Below are positions 752 to 53,011 of a stretch of DNA of 64,000 bases, piece after piece (positions within the stretch are counted from its first letter, which is position 1; every line of letters begins with the position of its first letter). Below the pieces are notes generated by a model that ran no database searches, had not been told where the DNA came from, and saw only the letters and a list, made by a program, of their open reading frames with translations. This stretch comes from Candidatus Peregrinibacteria bacterium (lineage in GTDB: Bacteria; Patescibacteriota; Gracilibacteria; UBA1369; LOWO2-01-FULL-3). A program made the translations under genes and the position numbers. The DNA lies in assembly GCA_026395515.1 (NCBI GenBank), contig JAPLYN010000003.1:1-64000 (forward strand), in the 5' to 3' direction.

Positions 752-1681
752 CTAACAGTTTCGATAATATTTTCCACTCTTTGTGACTATTAGCTGCTGC
801 ATTTCTAACATAGTAATAGACTGTAATAGCTCGCGAATTGGTAGATTAGATTTATGCTCTAAGGTCTCCATATCTAGTCCTTTAGACTTTGGGAAAAGTT
901 TGAGAACTCTAGATTGAGAAGGAGAAAGATCAAAAGGAATTGGAGGTACTTTTTTTGGTGGAACTGGCCGCGGTTGGAATAGGGCCGATCTCCTCTCTTT
1001 TATGCGTGAATTTAATTTAAATAAATGAGGCTGTTCTCTCAGTATTTCAATAATTTCTTGGCCGGAAGAGATGGGATAAGCATGACCTTTTTGCAATAAG
1101 TGAAGTGGACCAATGCTGTTTTCTCTATCAATGTCTCCCGGCACGACGAAGACTTCCCTGCCCTGATTGAGAGCTAAATCTGCGGTGATGAGAGCACCGG
1201 ATTTCTCCGGAGCTTCAATAAGAATTGTGGCTAGAGAAAGCCCACTAACGATTCTATTTCTTTGAGGAAAATTTATTTTCAGAGGCTCGCGCATATCGGA
1301 ATATTCTGAAAGTAAGAGGCCGGAATTTTGAATTTCTTCGGCGAGTTCTAAATTTTGTGGCGGATAAATATTGTCGATACCACTGCCAAGAACGGCGATG
1401 GTAGGAGTTCCACATTCCAGTGCCGTCCTATGAGCGATACTATCTATTCCCAGAGCCAATCCGGAGACAATGCAAATATCGAGCACACTCAATTCCCTGA
1501 TAATTTTTGCCGTCATTTCTTCTCCATAGTCGGAATATTTACGAGTACCTACTACGCTGATGCAGGGCTTGTTTAAGAGGCTGATATCCCCTTTGTAATA
1601 GAGTCTTTCTGGAGGTTTATGAATTTCTTTGAGGAGAGTTGGATAGTTACTGAGGTTTAAAATTTCTGTTTTTTTAGACAT
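752..1681 (-). CDS. dprA: DNA processing protein DprA/Smf (start revised to ATG at 1681; ORF track start at 1714 is TTG)
   Basis: VVGTRKYSDYGEEMTAKIIRELSVLDICIVSGLALGIDSIAHRTALECGTPTIAVLGSGIDNIYPPQN...; Rossmann-like DprA signature. Confidence 0.95.
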   Translation of the reverse strand: MSKKTEILNLSNYPTLLKEIHKPPERLYYKGDISLLNKPCISVVGTRKYSDYGEEMTAKIIRELSVLDICIVSGLALGIDSIAHRTALECGTPTIAVLGSGIDNIYPPQNLELAEEIQNSGLLLSEYSDMREPLKINFPQRNRIVSGLSLATILIEAPEKSGALITADLALNQGREVFVVPGDIDRENSIGPLHLLQKGHAYPISSGQEIIEILREQPHLFKLNSRIKERRSALFQPRPVPPKKVPPIPFDLSPSQSRVLKLFPKSKGLDMETLEHKSNLPIRELLQSITMLEMQQLIVTKSGKYYRNC

Positions 1682-1752
1682 GGAAAAATTGGTTATTTTA
1701 TTAACCAATACCAAACAAAGTTAAAATTTTCTTAAATTATTTCTAAATTAAT

Positions 1753-2781
1753 TTAGAAACTAACTTCTCCACCTTCCACAACTTCGCCCATTACTTGGCA
1801 TTCAATGCCGTGTTTTTGGCAGATTTCTGTGATCTTTTCAACGTCGTTGCTGATGAGGACCATACCAATTCCCATATTCCAAGTCTGGTAAGCTTCATCG
1901 CGACTAACGTTGCCGATTTCCATAAGCTTAGTCATGAAATCCGGTGGCTGAATAAGATTTGTGAGTTTAGCGCCAAGGCCGCTTCTCTTTAATGCACGTG
2001 GAAGATTTCCAGGGAGACCTCCGCCAGTAATATGAGCTACGCCTTTGAGTTCTACCTTTGGTTTTTCCTTGAAACGACCATGCATTTCTAGCACAGCACT
2101 GCAGAAAATATCAGATGGAGTAAGAGTTACTTCACCCCAAGTGCGAGTATCATCAAATTTTTCAAAGCCCCATTTTTCGCCGAATTTTGTTTTCAAAATG
2201 TGACGAACAAGAGTGAGTCCGTTAGATCTAAATCCTTTTGATTTCAAACCAATAATCTTATCGCCTACTTTCACATTTGCTCCAGTAATCATGTGATCTT
2301 TTTCCACAATTCCCACACAAGTTGCATTCCAAATATAACCATTTACACGATCTCCCAATTCAGCAATTTCTCCTCCAGGAATTACTACTTTATGAGCTAA
2401 AGCAGCTTTCTGAAGACCACCCATAAGAGCAGCAATTTTCTTATCATCTACCTTATCAACATCAAAAGTATTGGAAACAGTAATAGGCTCAGCACCTACG
2501 CAAATCGCATCATCCACAACCATACAAACTAGATCAATTCCCATAGTGTCATATTTCCCCATCATTTCAGCGATAGCCATTTTCGTACCAACACCATCAT
2601 CGTTCTGCACTAAAAAATAATCTCCCATATCGAGAGTTCCAGTAAAGCCACCATCATCTAAAACAGGTTCACCAATCATGCCTTTGCGTCCAGGAAAAGT
2701 CCCCTTTGCAGCATTGTAAGCAATTTCAGAACACTTATCTCCGAGATCAATATTGACCCCTGCTTCTTCGTATGTAGCCAT
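1753..2781 (-). CDS. purM: Phosphoribosylformylglycinamidine cyclo-ligase
   Basis: GVNIDLGDKCSE..., NDDGVGTKMAIAEMMGKYDTMGIDLVCMVVDDAICVGAEPITVSNTF, GLKSKGFRSNGLTLVRHIL, HITGGGLPGNLPRAL. Confidence 0.93.
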   Translation of the reverse strand: MATYEEAGVNIDLGDKCSEIAYNAAKGTFPGRKGMIGEPVLDDGGFTGTLDMGDYFLVQNDDGVGTKMAIAEMMGKYDTMGIDLVCMVVDDAICVGAEPITVSNTFDVDKVDDKKIAALMGGLQKAALAHKVVIPGGEIAELGDRVNGYIWNATCVGIVEKDHMITGANVKVGDKIIGLKSKGFRSNGLTLVRHILKTKFGEKWGFEKFDDTRTWGEVTLTPSDIFCSAVLEMHGRFKEKPKVELKGVAHITGGGLPGNLPRALKRSGLGAKLTNLIQPPDFMTKLMEIGNVSRDEAYQTWNMGIGMVLISNDVEKITEICQKHGIECQVMGEVVEGGEVSF

Positions 2782-6509: not shown

Positions 6510-6538
6510 TTGATTTCTTGGTCTTTTTGTTGTATAAT
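6510..6538 (+). promoter_or_regulatory. Sigma70-type promoter for the L,D-transpeptidase gene
   Basis: TTGATT - 17 bp - TATAAT, ~30 bp before ATG at 6570. Confidence 0.7.
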
Positions 6539-28186: not shown

Positions 28187-29671
28187 ATGAAAAAGATAGC
28201 TTCATTATTCCTGGTAACAACACTGTTATCAATGTCTACATTCACAGCCTTTGCGGCTGACAAAGCTAACCCTAGCATTGTAACAAATGTAAAAGTTACA
28301 GCCTTGGATGGAGGCGCAAAAGTAACTTGGGACAAGGCCACTGACGACGTCGGTGTGACTGGTTACCAAGTACATTATGGACTTAAACCTGCATTAAAAC
28401 AGGGTGAGGACTATGACAAGCTAATAGATGTAAAAAATGTCCTAGAATATACAGTGACAGGATTAACTAATGGAACTAAGTATTACTTCTCTGTGACAGC
28501 TTATGATGCTGCCGGTAATGAAAGTATGGCTTGGTCTACTCCTAGTGACGCATCTGCTACTCCGGCTAAAGCTGGTGGGAGTGCTGCAGCTAGTGATACA
28601 GTTGCTCCAAAGGTGGCTTCTGCTGAAGCAATGAATAATCAAGAGGTACAAGTGGTATTCTCTGAAGCTATCGTATTGCCAAAGACAAGTCCTCAAGACG
28701 CTTTCGATATTGAAGATCAAGATAAATTTGAACCTTTATTGGTTACTGGTGCTAAAATAGTTGGCCAAGATGAAGCTGGTACAACTGTAATGTTGAGCAC
28801 TTCTAAACAAAAAGCTAATACTCAGTATAAATTGACTGTAGGTATTGATGTAAAAGATAAAGCTGGAAACCCTATCGTAAGTGGTACTTCAGATACTGGT
28901 CTTTTCAAAGGTAGCGCTACAGATAAACCAGCTGAAACAGCTGTAGATACTACTTCTCCTTCAGTGGTAAAAGTAGAAAGCGTAGATAATACACATTTCA
29001 TTGTAAATTTTGATAAAGGTATCGTTTTAAGCATTGATCCTTCAGAAAATTTCACAATTACTGTTGATGGCAATGACACTAAAAAGCTTGATGTATTAGG
29101 AGTAAAACTTGGTACAAACAGCACTGGTGTAGAAGATGCTTCCGCTGTAATCACTACAAGCCCTCAGGATCTAGTTAAGTACAATGTAAAGGTAGTGGAT
29201 GTTAAAGATGCTGCTGGTAATAAGATTGCTGCAGACAAGAGCACTGGTTCATTCCAGGGTATGACTGCAACTGTTAATAACGGTCCAGATCTTATTCCTC
29301 CTAAGGATGTTGCAAACTTCATTTCTGATAAAGTTTTGATTGGTAAGCAATATACAGTAACTCTTAACTGGACAATTCCAGCTGAAAATACTGATACAAA
29401 AGAACAATTGATCTACAAGAGCACAGATAAAGGTGCAAAATATGATAAAGAAGCAAGTCTTACACCAGATAAAACATCTTATAAGTTAGAAAAAATGGAT
29501 CCAGGTGAATATTGGTTCAAAATTACTGAAAAAGATGCCGCTGGTAATGAAAGCCAAGGTGTAATTACAAAAATTGTATTACCAAAGACTGGTCCAGAAA
29601 TGATTGGATTGGTAGCTTTCTCACTCTTTGCAGGTAGAATGGTTACTCGCAAAAAGAAAAATAAAGTTTAG
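28187..29671 (+). CDS. Surface protein: fibronectin III + SbsA Ig-like domains with C-terminal LPKTG sorting signal
   Basis: Signal peptide; FnIII VTALDGGAKVTWDKATDDVGVTGYQVHY; Big_5-like DTTSPSVVKVESVDNTHFIVNFDKGI; C-term LPKTGPEMIGLVAFSLFAGRMVTRKKKNKV. Confidence 0.85.
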   Translation: MKKIASLFLVTTLLSMSTFTAFAADKANPSIVTNVKVTALDGGAKVTWDKATDDVGVTGYQVHYGLKPALKQGEDYDKLIDVKNVLEYTVTGLTNGTKYYFSVTAYDAAGNESMAWSTPSDASATPAKAGGSAAASDTVAPKVASAEAMNNQEVQVVFSEAIVLPKTSPQDAFDIEDQDKFEPLLVTGAKIVGQDEAGTTVMLSTSKQKANTQYKLTVGIDVKDKAGNPIVSGTSDTGLFKGSATDKPAETAVDTTSPSVVKVESVDNTHFIVNFDKGIVLSIDPSENFTITVDGNDTKKLDVLGVKLGTNSTGVEDASAVITTSPQDLVKYNVKVVDVKDAAGNKIAADKSTGSFQGMTATVNNGPDLIPPKDVANFISDKVLIGKQYTVTLNWTIPAENTDTKEQLIYKSTDKGAKYDKEASLTPDKTSYKLEKMDPGEYWFKITEKDAAGNESQGVITKIVLPKTGPEMIGLVAFSLFAGRMVTRKKKNKV

Positions 29672-29720
29672 AAAAAATTTAGATTTAATTTAAGAAAATT
29701 TTAACTTCAAAAGGTAGCAT
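29667..29720 (+). promoter_or_regulatory. 11-bp iterated direct repeats (4 units) + -10-like hexamer upstream of comEC-type gene
   Basis: TTTAGAAAAAA|TTTAGATTTAA|TTTAAGAAAAT|TTTAACTTCAA-AAGG-TAGCAT. Confidence 0.7.
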
Positions 29721-29738
29721 AGCAATATGCTACTTTTT
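29714..29738 (+). terminator. Hairpin + T-run (terminator-like) between repeats and comEC-type ORF
   Basis: GTAGCATA-GCAA-TATGCTAC followed by TTTTTTT. Confidence 0.6.
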
Positions 29739-30563
29739 TTGAATAAAACTTGGAGGATATGGGGACTTTATTTACTTGCGGGATATGCGGCTTTGGCAGT
29801 GCTTATTTGGCAGCTGCCAGATGATAAATTCCATATGTATTTTTTAAATATAGGGCAAGGCGATAGCACTCTAATAATAACTCCGGAAAATCATCAGATC
29901 TTGATAGATGGAGGACCAAAAAATTATGTTTTACAGCAATTGGATCAGGTAATGCCATTCTTTGATAAAACTATAGACTTGGTTGTTATTACACACCCTC
30001 ATGCTGACCATATAGATGGCCTGGTAGAGGTTCTGAAGCGTTACGAGGTCAATGCTATTCTCATGACTGGCGTGGACTACAAAAGCCCTTCTTATGACGA
30101 ATTTTTGAAGGTGGCGGCGGAGAAAAATATTCAGACATATATTGCTAAAAACGATGAGGATTTCATATTTGGCGCGATAACTTTAGATGTCATTTATCCG
30201 GATAAATCCATGCTAGGAAAGAAATTTATTAACCTGAATAATTCCTCTATTGTGATGAAAGTTTTATATGCAGGAAAAACAATATTGATGACTGGCGATA
30301 TGGCATTTGAGGAAGAAGATGCCTTAATGAAAACCGGTTTAAATTTAAAGGCCGATATTTTGAAAGTGGGACACCATGGAAGTAAGACTTCTTCTTCGCA
30401 GGAATTCTTGAACTTAGTTAAACCTGAAATCGCGATAATCCAATCTGGAAAAGGCAATTCTTTTGGTCACCCAAGCAAAGAATCTTTGGAACGACTGAAA
30501 GCTGCCGGAGTACAACAAATTTACAGAAATGATACAGATGGAAGAATAGAAATTACTTTCTAA
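29727..30563 (+). CDS. ComEC/Rec2-type metallo-beta-lactamase-fold competence protein (stand-alone MBL; start could be TTG 29739)
   Basis: FLNIGQGDSTLIITPENHQILIDGGP, VVITHPHADHIDGLVEVLKRY, LKVGHHGSKTSSSQEFLNLVKPEIAIIQSG. Confidence 0.88.
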   Translation: MLLFLNKTWRIWGLYLLAGYAALAVLIWQLPDDKFHMYFLNIGQGDSTLIITPENHQILIDGGPKNYVLQQLDQVMPFFDKTIDLVVITHPHADHIDGLVEVLKRYEVNAILMTGVDYKSPSYDEFLKVAAEKNIQTYIAKNDEDFIFGAITLDVIYPDKSMLGKKFINLNNSSIVMKVLYAGKTILMTGDMAFEEEDALMKTGLNLKADILKVGHHGSKTSSSQEFLNLVKPEIAIIQSGKGNSFGHPSKESLERLKAAGVQQIYRNDTDGRIEITF

Positions 30564-31893: not shown

Positions 31894-31922
31894 TTGAGAA
31901 ATGTGCCTGCTTATGTTATAAT
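31894..31922 (+). promoter_or_regulatory. Sigma70-type promoter for SLH protein
   Basis: TTGAGA - 17 bp - TATAAT with TATG extension. Confidence 0.7.
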
Positions 31923-33914: not shown

Positions 33915-35444
33915 TTATCTAATCCTATACTGCAACGCTTCTGCCAGATGTAAGTGTTCGATATTTTTGCTTTGGTCTAGATCAGCAATGGTACGAGCTA
34001 TTTTTAGAATTTTAAGATAAGCGCGATTAGAAAAACTATAATTGTCGCTGCCATCATTCAAGAATTTCTCATCGTCTTTTTTGAGCTCACAGAATTGCCG
34101 AATTTCATCTATTGTCATCTCAGAATTACTATTAACTAATTGATTCCCTGCAAATCTCTGATTCTGAATATTTTTTGCTTTAGATATTAAACTTGAAAGC
34201 ACAGCAGTTTCACTATTTTCATTTTCATTAAAAATATTTCTTATAGGTACAAGAGGAACTTCAATTATTATATCGAAACGATCCAGAATAGGTCCTGAAA
34301 GTTTTTTCTGATAATTTTTGATCTGGGCCGGAGAACAAATACATTTAACCTTTGGGTCACCTTTATAGCCGCAGGAACAAGGATTCATAGTCGCCACAAA
34401 CATAAAATTTGCGGGGAATTTTACGGAAAATTTAGAGCGACTGATGTTAATACTTTTATCCTCCAATGGTTGGCGCATAGCCTCCAAAACATGCGATGGA
34501 AACTCAGTAATCTCATCGAAAAATAAAACTCCATTATGTGCTAGAGAAATCTCTCCAGGACGCGGATTTGAGCCACCACCTCCAATTATCGAGACAAGTG
34601 AGGCAGTATGATGAACTTCACGAAAAGGCCTATTGGTAATTAGCGGAGAATCATCCTCCAGCATACCGGCTATGGAAAAAATTTTAGTTGTCTCAAATAT
34701 TTCATTGATGGACATTGCTGGCAAAATATCAGCAAAAGCTCTGGCAAGAATTGTTTTACCAGTACCAGGAGGTCCAACAAGTAGAATGTTGTGACCAGAA
34801 GTTGCGGCTATGGTCAGAGCTCTCTTTGCCATTCCTAATCCTATAATGCGATTGAAGGATGAATTTTTTTTAGTCTTTTTAAGTCCTTGATAAATTCTTT
34901 CCAATGATTGAGACGGAAAGGATTTCAAGGTAGAGGGATTCTCAGAATAATCTATTAATTCCCGGAGATTAGTTATCCCTAAAACCTCTATCCCCTCAAT
35001 AAAACTCGCTTCTTTAGCATTCTGTGCTGGAAGAAAAATCTTTTTGAAACCAAGAGTTTTTAGGTGTTGAACTATCGCCAATGTGCCATGTATTTTTTTC
35101 ACTCCACCATCGAGAGAAAGTTCTCCAATGATAATAGAATTTTCGAAGTTTTCAGCTTCAACTTGCCCACTTGCCAGAAGAATACTCACAGCAATTGGCA
35201 GATCAAAAAGCGACCCTTGCTTCTTTATTTCCGCAGGAGCTAAATTTACAATTTTTCGAGTCTGAGGGAAATCAGCTCCGCTATTTTTGATGCCACTTCT
35301 CACTCTTTCTTTAGATTCCTGGACCGAGGTATCTCCAAGCCCTACAATATTAAACACTGGAAGACCATTAGAGATGTCTGCTTCCACTTCTACAATCTGA
35401 CAAGCCAAACCTGTTAAACAACATGAAAAAACTTTTTTAGCCAT
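33915..35444 (-). CDS. comM: Mg-chelatase-like AAA+ ATPase ComM/YifB
   Basis: GLACQIVEVEADISNGLPVFNIVGLGDTSVQESKERVRSGIKNSG..., HNILLVGPPGTGKTILARAFADILPAM, ATMNPCSCGYKGD. Confidence 0.96.
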   Translation of the reverse strand: MAKKVFSCCLTGLACQIVEVEADISNGLPVFNIVGLGDTSVQESKERVRSGIKNSGADFPQTRKIVNLAPAEIKKQGSLFDLPIAVSILLASGQVEAENFENSIIIGELSLDGGVKKIHGTLAIVQHLKTLGFKKIFLPAQNAKEASFIEGIEVLGITNLRELIDYSENPSTLKSFPSQSLERIYQGLKKTKKNSSFNRIIGLGMAKRALTIAATSGHNILLVGPPGTGKTILARAFADILPAMSINEIFETTKIFSIAGMLEDDSPLITNRPFREVHHTASLVSIIGGGGSNPRPGEISLAHNGVLFFDEITEFPSHVLEAMRQPLEDKSINISRSKFSVKFPANFMFVATMNPCSCGYKGDPKVKCICSPAQIKNYQKKLSGPILDRFDIIIEVPLVPIRNIFNENENSETAVLSSLISKAKNIQNQRFAGNQLVNSNSEMTIDEIRQFCELKKDDEKFLNDGSDNYSFSNRAYLKILKIARTIADLDQSKNIEHLHLAEALQYRIR

Positions 35445-35468: not shown

Positions 35469-35522
35469 ATTATGACAGCCAAAGTTAAAATTTTTCTAAA
35501 TTTTTCTTAAAATAATTTTAAA
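35469..35522 (-). promoter_or_regulatory. 11-bp iterated direct repeats (4 units) + -10-like hexamer upstream of comM
   Basis: Minus strand: TTTAAAATTAT|TTTAAGAAAAA|TTTAGAAAAAT|TTTAACTTTGG-CTGT-CATAAT. Confidence 0.75.
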
Positions 35523-36488
35523 ATTCTTTTTGTCACTTTTGAAGTAGATTGTATTTCCATTGCTGGTAGCAATAAATTCATCTGGAAGAGAAAGAATTTG
35601 AGAAAACGCCCCTAATAGTTCAGACTTGCCACTATTGGCTTTATATATACCGAAAGTCACTCCTGTTTGAGATTTTGTATCTAATAAATTTATTTCGTTT
35701 TCTCCAACCGTGGAATAAGACTGATCAGTTACAAACACTAAATTATCGTCATAAGACCAAGAAATTTGTTTTATTCCTGTGGCTAATTGGAGCTGTGAAA
35801 TATTTTTATTAGAAACATTTAGCTCCCATAATTTTTCGGAATTTTTCTTTCTAAAAATGAGGAATTTACCATCATTTGACCATCTGCCATCTTCTACATA
35901 AAAGAGGTCTTTTTGGCTTACTTCCTCACGTTTCTTCGTTTCAAAATTAACTATATATCCGGAATTATTCTGAGAATTTAAATCCAATATTAAAGCAGCA
36001 TTTTTATCACCTATTATCTTGAATTTAGAAATTGGTTTTGGAAAATAAGCCAAAGATTCGCTAGAAACATTAGATTTATTTATTAGCTTTTGCATGTTAT
36101 TTCCTCTATCGAGTACCATATCAAATTCTATTTTTTTCTGTATTTCCGGAATAGCATCAGCGGCTTCTACATGTGGAACAATATCAAAGACTAGAGGCAG
36201 CTCTACAGTTCTCCAAAGCTTTACCGTGGTGGAAGTTATAATTGATCTGAATCCATCTTTACTAATTAATAGATCTTTATAGCCACTTTTTGTCTTAACT
36301 AAACAAGGTGAGGTAGGACATTCTTGCCTAGACAAGCCATAAATTTCAACTTTAAATGGAGCGTCCCCAATGAGCTTTATAGTCCCTTTATTTATTAGGT
36401 TTCCCCAAAAGAAAAACACAACTGATCCAACTACAGCTAAGGCTAGCAATGAGCCAAAAAATATCGTTCTTTTCTTTTCAATTTCCAT
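35496..36488 (-). CDS. Membrane-anchored PEGA-like domain protein
   Basis: N-terminal TM then GTIKLIGDAPFKVEIYGLSRQECPTSPCLVKTKSGYKDLLISKDGFRS (PEGA-like). Confidence 0.6.
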   Translation of the reverse strand: MEIEKKRTIFFGSLLALAVVGSVVFFFWGNLINKGTIKLIGDAPFKVEIYGLSRQECPTSPCLVKTKSGYKDLLISKDGFRSIITSTTVKLWRTVELPLVFDIVPHVEAADAIPEIQKKIEFDMVLDRGNNMQKLINKSNVSSESLAYFPKPISKFKIIGDKNAALILDLNSQNNSGYIVNFETKKREEVSQKDLFYVEDGRWSNDGKFLIFRKKNSEKLWELNVSNKNISQLQLATGIKQISWSYDDNLVFVTDQSYSTVGENEINLLDTKSQTGVTFGIYKANSGKSELLGAFSQILSLPDEFIATSNGNTIYFKSDKKNFKIILRKI

Positions 36489-36858
36489 CTAAAATATTTT
36501 TAAAGTGTTTTAGGTCTATAATCTTCATGCTCTTGGTTAATTTTACGGCAATAGCGTCCATTCGCCAAATGTGAGGCAGATTTTCGGTTGAGGAATTCAT
36601 GAAATGTATGGCGGTTTTAAGCATTTTGGCGCGTTTCCTATAATCAATACTCTCCTGTGGTAAGCCAAAAACATCAGATGTACGAGTTTTCACTTCTACA
36701 AAAACTAGCTGATTGTGAGAATTACTATCATCAATCGCAATAATATCAATTTCGCCAAAACGAGTATGAAAATTTTTTGCTATGATTTTATAATCGTGAG
36801 AAATCAGAAAATTTTCCGCATGTAATTCTCCAATTTTTCCTGTGGATATGTTGTTCAT
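36478..36858 (-). CDS. yraN: YraN family (UPF0102) endonuclease-like protein
   Basis: GKIGELHAENFLISHDYKIIAKNFHTRFGEIDIIAIDDSNSHNQLVFVEVKTRTSDVFG. Confidence 0.93.
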   Translation of the reverse strand: MNNISTGKIGELHAENFLISHDYKIIAKNFHTRFGEIDIIAIDDSNSHNQLVFVEVKTRTSDVFGLPQESIDYRKRAKMLKTAIHFMNSSTENLPHIWRMDAIAVKLTKSMKIIDLKHFKNILDGN

Positions 36859-36864
36859 GAATCC

Positions 36865-36896
36865 ATAATGAAGACTTAACTTAAAATTTTCTTAAA
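36865..36896 (-). promoter_or_regulatory. 11-bp direct repeats (2 units) + -10-like hexamer upstream of yraN
   Basis: Minus strand: TTTAAGAAAAT|TTTAAGTTAAG-TCTT-CATTAT. Confidence 0.65.
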
Positions 36897-37469: not shown

Positions 37470-37498
37470 ATTATAACATAAAAATGCTAAAAATTCAA
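37470..37498 (-). promoter_or_regulatory. Sigma70-type promoter for pilin gene
   Basis: Minus strand TTGAAT - 17 bp - TATAAT. Confidence 0.65.
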
Positions 37499-39028: not shown

Positions 39029-39071
39029 TTTAGAATTAATTTAAGAAAATTTTAGATTTGGTGTGTATGCT
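39029..39071 (+). promoter_or_regulatory. 11-bp direct repeats (3 units) + -10-like hexamer upstream of an uncharacterised gene
   Basis: TTTAGAATTAA|TTTAAGAAAAT|TTTAGATTTGG-TGTG-TATGCT. Confidence 0.7.
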
Positions 39072-39078
39072 TTCGAGT

Positions 39079-39492
39079 ATGAAAGTATATCAAACCAAAA
39101 TTAGGCCTATACCAGGAACCGATTTTAGAGAAGTTCATAAAAAGGCTTTTAATCTTTTTAAACAACTAAAAAGTAAGAGCAAAAGACGTGCATATGTAAG
39201 GTCGGCTTACTTTAACAAAAACAAAGTTTTTCTAGATATTTTCTGGGGCCATCTTTTTGAAAAACCTAACTGGAGAGATCGTGTGCGAAGAGTAAAATAT
39301 TTTCCACCAGGCATTGATCTCATTCAAAATTCCAGATTTGAACCAAAAACAAAAGAGAATCCAAATAAGAGTGGTGAAACTTTATATAGGTTTGCAGGTA
39401 TGACATCAGAATCCGAATTGTTTTATGTGCAAATAAAAGAGGACAAGAAGCGTCAGCAGAAGCTACTTATATCAATCTTCCCGGATAAATAA
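39079..39492 (+). CDS. Uncharacterised small basic protein (possible barnase/EndoU/RelE-like nuclease fold)
   Basis: MKVYQTKIRPIPGTDFREVHKKAFNLFKQLKSKSKRRAYVRSAYFNKNKVFLDIFWGHLFEKPNWRDRVRRVKYFPPGIDLIQNSRFEP...RFAGMTSESELFYVQIKEDKKRQQKLLISIFPDK; start revised from 39058 (TTG). Confidence 0.65.
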   Translation: MKVYQTKIRPIPGTDFREVHKKAFNLFKQLKSKSKRRAYVRSAYFNKNKVFLDIFWGHLFEKPNWRDRVRRVKYFPPGIDLIQNSRFEPKTKENPNKSGETLYRFAGMTSESELFYVQIKEDKKRQQKLLISIFPDK

Positions 39493-52892: not shown

Positions 52893-52937
52893 GGCAGCTC
52901 CGCCCAGGGTTTATATCGGGTGAGCGGAGCCTTTTTG
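52893..52937 (+). terminator. Terminator after ybeY
   Basis: GGCAGCTCCGCCC...GGGTGAGCGGAGCC + TTTTTG. Confidence 0.65.
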
Positions 52938-52968
52938 TTTTTCGCGTATTTCCTATGACGCGATTTTC

Positions 52969-53011
52969 ATTTAACACAGCAAACATTAAATTTTCTTAAA
53001 ATTTTTCTAAA
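52969..53011 (-). promoter_or_regulatory. Orphan 11-bp repeat site (same motif as dprA/comM sites)
   Basis: Minus strand: TTTAGAAAAAT|TTTAAGAAAAT|TTAATGTTTGC-TGTG-TTAAAT. Confidence 0.5.

Follow-up and report, generated by a model that had tools for sequence, protein, structure and literature searches.

The Pho box of Escherichia coli, the target of PhoB, consists of tandem 11-bp direct repeats that replace the −35 promoter element. Typical members of the late competence regulons, those of ComX/SigX with the cin-box and of Sxy with CRP-S sites, are recA, ssb, dprA, comEC, comF and comM; we know of no direct control of recA, dprA or comEC by the streptococcal regulator CiaR. The CiaR box of Streptococcus, NTTAAG-N5-TTTAAG, is located 10 bp from the −10 element; small RNAs are among the targets of CiaRH, which influences competence as well (PMC3091779). 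Here we describe a box of 11-bp repeats that precedes dprA and several other genes in a 64,000-nucleotide stretch of DNA (positions 1 to 64,000 of contig JAPLYN010000003.1, assembly GCA_026395515.1; hereinafter, the window) from a Candidatus Peregrinibacteria bacterium, an uncultured ultra-small bacterium of the Patescibacteria. We consider it likely that this box is an activator-dependent promoter element of a lineage-wide regulon that is read by a receiver-less winged-helix protein of the PhoB/OmpR type.

The box can be compared with each of these systems. With the CiaR box, it shares the half-site, the 11-bp period and the distance to the −10 element; the site upstream of yraN matches TTTAAG-N5-TTTAAG exactly, and most of the others read TTTAAG-N5-TTTAAC or are shifted by one base. 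Unlike the CiaR box, however, it comprises three to four units and an extended −10 element, and CiaR works as a complete response regulator paired with a kinase, whereas the candidate regulator here lacks a receiver. Like the Pho box, it places tandem 11-bp repeats in the −35 position, and the DNA-binding domains closest to that of the candidate regulator are those of ArlR and PhoB; the repeat sequence and the gene set are different, and the receiver domain of PhoB has no counterpart. The gene set overlaps with the late competence regulons in recA, ssb, dprA, comEC, comF and comM, but the box resembles neither the cin-box nor the CRP site, the pilus ATPases are outside the regulon, and toxin-antitoxin genes and genes for tRNA-like RNAs are included.

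A 2023 genetic study of Saccharibacteria demonstrated natural competence, and its main text contains no word beginning with “regulat” (PMC10633639). A literature search, the coverage of which did not extend to subscription journals and preprints, found neither a described competence regulator nor a described family of tRNA-like or antisense RNAs in this lineage. For the control of DNA uptake in Patescibacteria, the box supplies a recognisable mark, a list of genes and a single candidate regulator; it also ties DNA uptake to toxin-antitoxin and defence-like genes and brings out a family of tRNA-like RNAs with predicted cognate antisense RNAs. The genome that contains the window (G000, 1.30 Mb, 99.9% complete) was compared with three congeners (G001–G003, two of which are 99% complete) and with more distant relatives, all of these being assemblies of the metagenome-assembled genome (MAG) type; the analysis is sequence-based throughout.

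The dprA promoter and the architecture of the box

The dprA gene (752..1681, minus strand; PF02481, E-value 8e-76) is preceded on the same strand, at 1705-1758, by four units in 11-bp phase and a −10-like hexamer, exactly as the first-pass annotation of this DNA had read it. The units, TTCTAAATTAA (1758-1748), TTTAGAAATAA (1747-1737), TTTAAGAAAAT (1736-1726) and TTTAACTTTGT (1725-1715), form a box (1715..1758) that scores 42.7 with a matrix derived from independent genomes. The fourth unit is followed by TTGG and the hexamer TATTGG (1710-1705), 24-29 bp before the dprA ATG (1681); at the other end of the box, the first unit shares bases with the stop codon of the AIRS-domain gene that lies upstream (1753-2781). 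The hexamer, described in the annotation as −10-like, is more precisely the −10 part of an extended −10 element, TGgTATTGG (1705..1713, minus strand), as judged by column conservation over 82 sites. The box also precedes dprA in G002 and, in a weaker form, in G003.

The exact 11-mer alone occurs in the window at the chance level (16 matches with at most one mismatch against 11.4 expected), so that the arrangement had to be tested as a whole. For this purpose, a weight matrix was built from two sister genomes only, with the genome of the window excluded. This matrix yields 42.7 bits at 1736(−), 34.9 at 29689(+), 35.2 at 35500(−), 38.8 at 39040(+) and 35.7 at 53000(−), compared to the maximum of 23.9 bits among 100 dinucleotide shuffles; the yraN site at 36896(−) scores 16.0 bits. 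The loose pattern TTTAAG-N5-TTTAAG with one mismatch is less frequent than its reversed control (43 against 87), and a longer core was therefore used. In the genome of the window, the core TTTAAGAAAATTTTA is matched exactly 16 times and with one mismatch another 16 times, and the ratio of the 15-bp core TTTAAGAAAATTTWA, counted on both strands, to its reversed control is 27:1 in this genome and 16:0, 23:1 and 32:0 in the three congeners. This 15-bp core occurs in the majority of the family's 21 other genomes and is almost absent from other families.

Alignment, on the seed alone, of 82 sites from three genomes yields the consensus TTTAGAATTAA TTTAGAAAnAA TTTAAGAAAAT TTTAnnTTTG nnTGnTAnnnT, with the 11-bp direct repeats, in tandem, standing where a −35 element would otherwise lie. 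Several columns outside the seed are conserved at 79-96%, namely TTTA located 11 bp upstream, TTTG at +17 to +20, TG at +23/+24 and TA at +26/+27. Within the extended −10 element, TG is conserved at 79/89%, TA at 91/89% and the final T at 61%; the register of TGnTAnnnT is fixed across the 82 sites, and the last TTTAA hexamer is separated from the −10 by 9-10 nt. The distance from the start of the −10 to the first ATG of an open reading frame (ORF) peaks at 12-13 nt (14 of 62 cases), which places these ATGs at the expected transcription start, suggests leaderless mRNAs and independently supports the −10 assignment. Probable leaderless mRNAs start at 29727, 36858 and 39079 in the window and are found also at loci L043, L044 and L053. 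The contrast with ordinary promoters that the annotation had drawn is clear at 6510 (TTGATT-17-TATAAT) and 28113 (TTGATT-17-TATAA) and plausible at 31894, but weak at 37470.

Genes behind the box and conservation in the family

The box, its architecture, the associated gene set and its conservation are read directly from the sequence. Pfam searches identify, downstream of the boxes, recA, ssb, dprA, comEC (Competence domain), comM, yraN, a ComEC-type metallo-beta-lactamase protein and comF (zinc ribbon and phosphoribosyltransferase). The box is also found before genes for Phd-, HicA-, RelB- and MazE-like toxin-antitoxin proteins (some of these matches lie under the Pfam curated cut-offs), DUF4258, DUF3800, secreted lamin-tail proteins, and KilA-N proteins that match the PADLOC defence candidate PDC-S22 at 1e-122. 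In all three genomes, it precedes recA, the ComEC-type metallo-beta-lactamase protein, comF, ssb, two lamin-tail proteins, KilA-N proteins, an unknown family and a coiled-coil family. A conserved box-driven protein family is represented at loci L041, L192, L217 and L228; Pfam and PADLOC searches with three of its members (L041, L192 and L217) gave no match, nor did NCBIfam for L041 and L192.

The regulon thus delineated appears to join DNA internalisation and recombination with toxin-antitoxin, defence-like, lamin-tail and tRNA-like RNA genes. Accordingly, the competence regulon proposed in the annotation holds for the DNA-uptake and recombination genes but is too narrow for the toxin-antitoxin, KilA-N, DUF3800 and lamin-tail genes and the tRNA-like RNAs. 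The presence of recA, ssb and toxin-antitoxin genes could alternatively indicate that the box, although real, serves a response to DNA damage or to stress in general, with recA and the com genes as just some of its members. We consider this fairly unlikely: LexA is encoded in the genome and its locus (L327) has no box, LexA boxes are inverted rather than direct repeats, and, in the systems known to us, comEC, comF, dprA and comM do not belong to the SOS genes. A stress response concerns the signal and is compatible with an activator-dependent promoter read by a winged-helix protein.

Conservation was assessed by scoring one region per genome upstream of each ortholog, with a few of the start positions approximate, against a threshold of 12 or more, a score that some 1% of random 420-nt regions attain. 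Outside the genus but within the family, boxes at this threshold lie upstream of recA in 12 of 17 genomes, of dprA in 15 of 20 and of comEC in 8 of 11; altogether, the box is present in 35 of 48 cases, against about 1% expected. The matrix comes from a single genus, so that diverged boxes are undercounted. The expectation that a matrix scan would show the box concentrated before competence genes and conserved in relatives is borne out for recA, ssb, dprA, comEC, comF, comM and yraN, with conservation across the family; the relatives are Ca. Peregrinibacteria and Peribacteria, not the actinobacteria to which the gene neighborhood had been compared. Outside the family, a different repeat, with TTCAT units, is common to dprA, comEC and the tRNA-like RNAs in G036, and TTTCAG...TTTAGAGATCGGTAATGT is common to dprA, recA and the tRNA-like RNAs in G037, a member of yet another family; these diverged boxes were read by eye. 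Such concerted change of a box upstream of the same genes would be expected of the target of a regulator.

Alternatively, the A/T-rich repeats might act as an UP element or as bent DNA and so boost ordinary sigma-70 promoters of the extended −10 type, no dedicated regulator being involved. Helically phased A-tracts upstream of an extended −10 are indeed typical of UP elements. The units, however, keep to a strict sequence (TTTAAG instead of an arbitrary A-tract), the reversed pattern hardly occurs, the genes concerned are a specific set, and in other families the different TTCAT repeat stands before the same genes; such an origin of the repeats is very unlikely.

The candidate regulator and its neighbor

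The genome of the window encodes two proteins with the OmpR-type winged-helix domain (PF00486). One is a classical response regulator with a kinase (L061, near G000:C6:429.5k), and the other is a receiver-less protein of about 103 amino acids (G000:C6:134355-134663, minus strand). In G001–G003, the receiver-less protein is the single PF00486 member, and no receiver-containing OmpR protein is present. The receiver-less protein shows 72-82% identity in the congeners and 32-59% across the remaining genera of the family; beyond the family, its counterpart carries an N-terminal extension that lacks a Pfam receiver match (L144).

That L061, a complete OmpR-family regulator with receiver and winged helix and an adjacent histidine kinase in the same genome, binds the box is highly improbable given that proteins of this type are missing in all three congeners, each of which has 16-32 exact boxes and two of which are 99% complete. 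With no receiver-containing OmpR protein in these box-bearing congeners, a classical phosphorylated response regulator is an improbable binder of the box. By elimination, the receiver-less winged-helix protein is the likely regulator. The OmpR/PhoB-like activator envisaged in the annotation accordingly fits the PhoB/CiaR-type geometry and the existence of a matching winged-helix protein, but probably not in the classical phosphorylated form.

The winged-helix gene adjoins, in 21 of the 22 closest named loci, a gene for a protein of about 355 amino acids with sigma region 4 and HARE-type domains (the latter below the Pfam cut-off); the named homologs are mostly from Ca. Peregrinibacteria, Peribacteria and Gracilibacteria MAGs. 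An AlphaFold model of this neighbor (mean pLDDT 79, pTM 0.57) shows the region-4 fold in the N-terminal part. Tandem winged-helix domains are additionally predicted in this protein (L121, 304-1383; homologs at L241-L262); the respective remainder of the model gives weak matches, so that the model supports the region-4 part only. The true region-4 fold and the close gene association could be taken to mean that this protein, or an alternative sigma factor, reads the repeats as a special −35 element. Such a role is very unlikely: there is no Pfam region-2 match in the neighbor, which would make opening of the −10 by this protein alone unlikely, and three to four tandem 11-bp repeats are unlike a −35 pattern.

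Under the scenario of an activator-dependent promoter, the 11-bp units (TTTAGAATTAA-TTTAGAAaaAA-TTTAAGAAAAT-TTTAAcTTTG) would occupy the −35 position directly upstream of the extended −10. Copies of the PhoB/OmpR-type winged-helix protein would most likely bind the units head-to-tail, one per DNA turn, and the bound proteins would recruit RNA polymerase, in a class-II-type activation by a receiver-less protein with the sigma-region-4/HARE neighbor as a possible partner. The identity of the binder, activation as opposed to repression, and the role of the partner are what we infer here. Several observations weigh against this scenario. The three loci of T2SSE-family (pilus-type) ATPases, where the annotation had expected matches, have no box, so that the box does not cover the whole uptake machinery, and about a quarter of the family orthologs have no recognisable box. 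There is no convincing box upstream of the winged-helix gene itself that would suggest autoregulation. Two incomplete genomes of the family (G007 and G014) contain boxes but no winged-helix match, an absence that may be due to missing sequence. Finally, the elimination of binders covered the OmpR family only, and a protein of another DNA-binding family could read the box.

Other sites in the window

The five sites reported in the annotation, before dprA, a comEC-like gene, comM, yraN and an unknown gene, all exist, and a sixth is added at 53000(−); of the units at the yraN site, only two are good. A four-unit box with the −10 TAGCAT (29667..29720, plus strand) precedes the gene for a ComEC C-terminal metallo-beta-lactamase-type protein (29727..30563, plus strand; PF00753), which is probably leaderless, with the ATG 12 nt after the −10 start. 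The comM gene (33915..35444, minus strand; PF01078, PF13541, PF13335) is preceded by a box with the −10 CATAAT (35469..35522, minus strand; score 35.2), and yraN (UPF0102, 36478..36858, minus strand; PF02021), probably leaderless with an offset of 12 nt, by two units, TTTAAG-N5-TTTAAG, with the −10 CATTAT (36865..36896, minus strand; score 16.0). The box with the −10 TATGCT at 39029..39071 (plus strand; score 38.8) precedes a probably leaderless gene for an unknown protein of 137 amino acids (39079..39492, plus strand), for which no Pfam or NCBIfam match was found; its start is ATG 39079 and not TTG 39058, as in the original ORF list.

The sixth box, with the −10 TTAAAT (52969..53011, minus strand; matrix match at 53000(−), 35.7), has no ORF downstream. 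It is followed by a hairpin, GGCTCCGC...GCGGAGC, at about 52930-52899, and the product is probably a non-coding RNA. Box-driven transcripts starting with ATCGCGTCATAGGAAATACGC and with no close ORF, at 52899-52990 of the window and at loci L036 and L198, probably form a second type of non-coding RNA, beside the tRNA-like RNAs.

tRNA-like RNAs

At 13 sites in three genomes, a tRNA-like RNA starts about 20 nt after the −10. These RNAs consist of an outer stem, a 7-bp acceptor stem with G3.U70, A73, CC(A/G), a T arm, a reduced D arm and an anticodon-like hairpin, followed by a terminator, with cores of about 70 nt. The G3.U70 pair is present in all 13 seed RNAs, where it was not required (a further locus, L203, did not parse as this structure); in a survey of 32 loci, it was required by the pattern, and its frequency there is not independent. 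A covariance model detects further such RNAs in many genomes of the family and in three other families, and the loci in other family genomes that were found by the model rather than by the box have a box score of at least 12 in 9 of 11 cases. The matches of this model in the window are ordinary tRNA-Ser and tRNA-Pro.

For the first non-coding loci, ARAGORN and Rfam at the gathering threshold found nothing except an ordinary tRNA. In a permissive Rfam search, the tmRNA model matches only the two ends of the RNAs, with 21-44 bits, below the gathering score of 47; this similarity to tmRNA is not accompanied by a tag reading frame or a tag-encoding mRNA-like domain. In tRNA-ProX of Streptomyces, a mistranslating tRNA of dual identity, the acceptor and the anticodon belong to different identities, and G3.U70 is the identity element of AlaRS (PMC11415595). 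The tRNA-like RNAs show a similar mismatch between acceptor and anticodons, and alanine charging is plausible in view of G3.U70. They differ from tmRNA and tRNA-ProX in the combination of an alanine-type acceptor, no tag frame and, at most loci, a predicted convergent antisense RNA. Parsing of the 32 hairpins with a simple parser shows U33 in 27 and an alanine anticodon (NGC) in none.

An exact copy, of at least 9 nt, of the hairpin region of the RNA itself is located just downstream at 28 of the 32 loci, which include orthologs and are thus not 32 independent cases, compared to 3.5% of 922 non-cognate pairs. In most cases, a −10 on the opposite strand comes after this copy, which together predicts a convergent, cognate antisense RNA that starts with the complement of the anticodon hairpin. 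A tentative scenario, possible rather than probable, is that the receiver-less PhoB-like protein and its sigma-region-4-like partner run a competence-and-defence programme that includes alanine-charged, tmRNA-like tRNAs with Ile, Leu, Arg, Thr, Ser and Pro anticodons, each checked by its own antisense RNA, so that the outcome could be programmed mistranslation or an RNA-only toxin-antidote pair.

The tRNA-like RNA loci are L033, L045, L049, L057 and L358 in the genome of the window and L181-L186, L199, L202, L209, L223, L229, L302-L312 and L359-L373 in the others. L358 (G000:C1:74900-75600) is a naturally disrupted copy, which retains the 11-bp units but has lost the −10 and the 5' outer stem compared to its G002 counterpart, L184.
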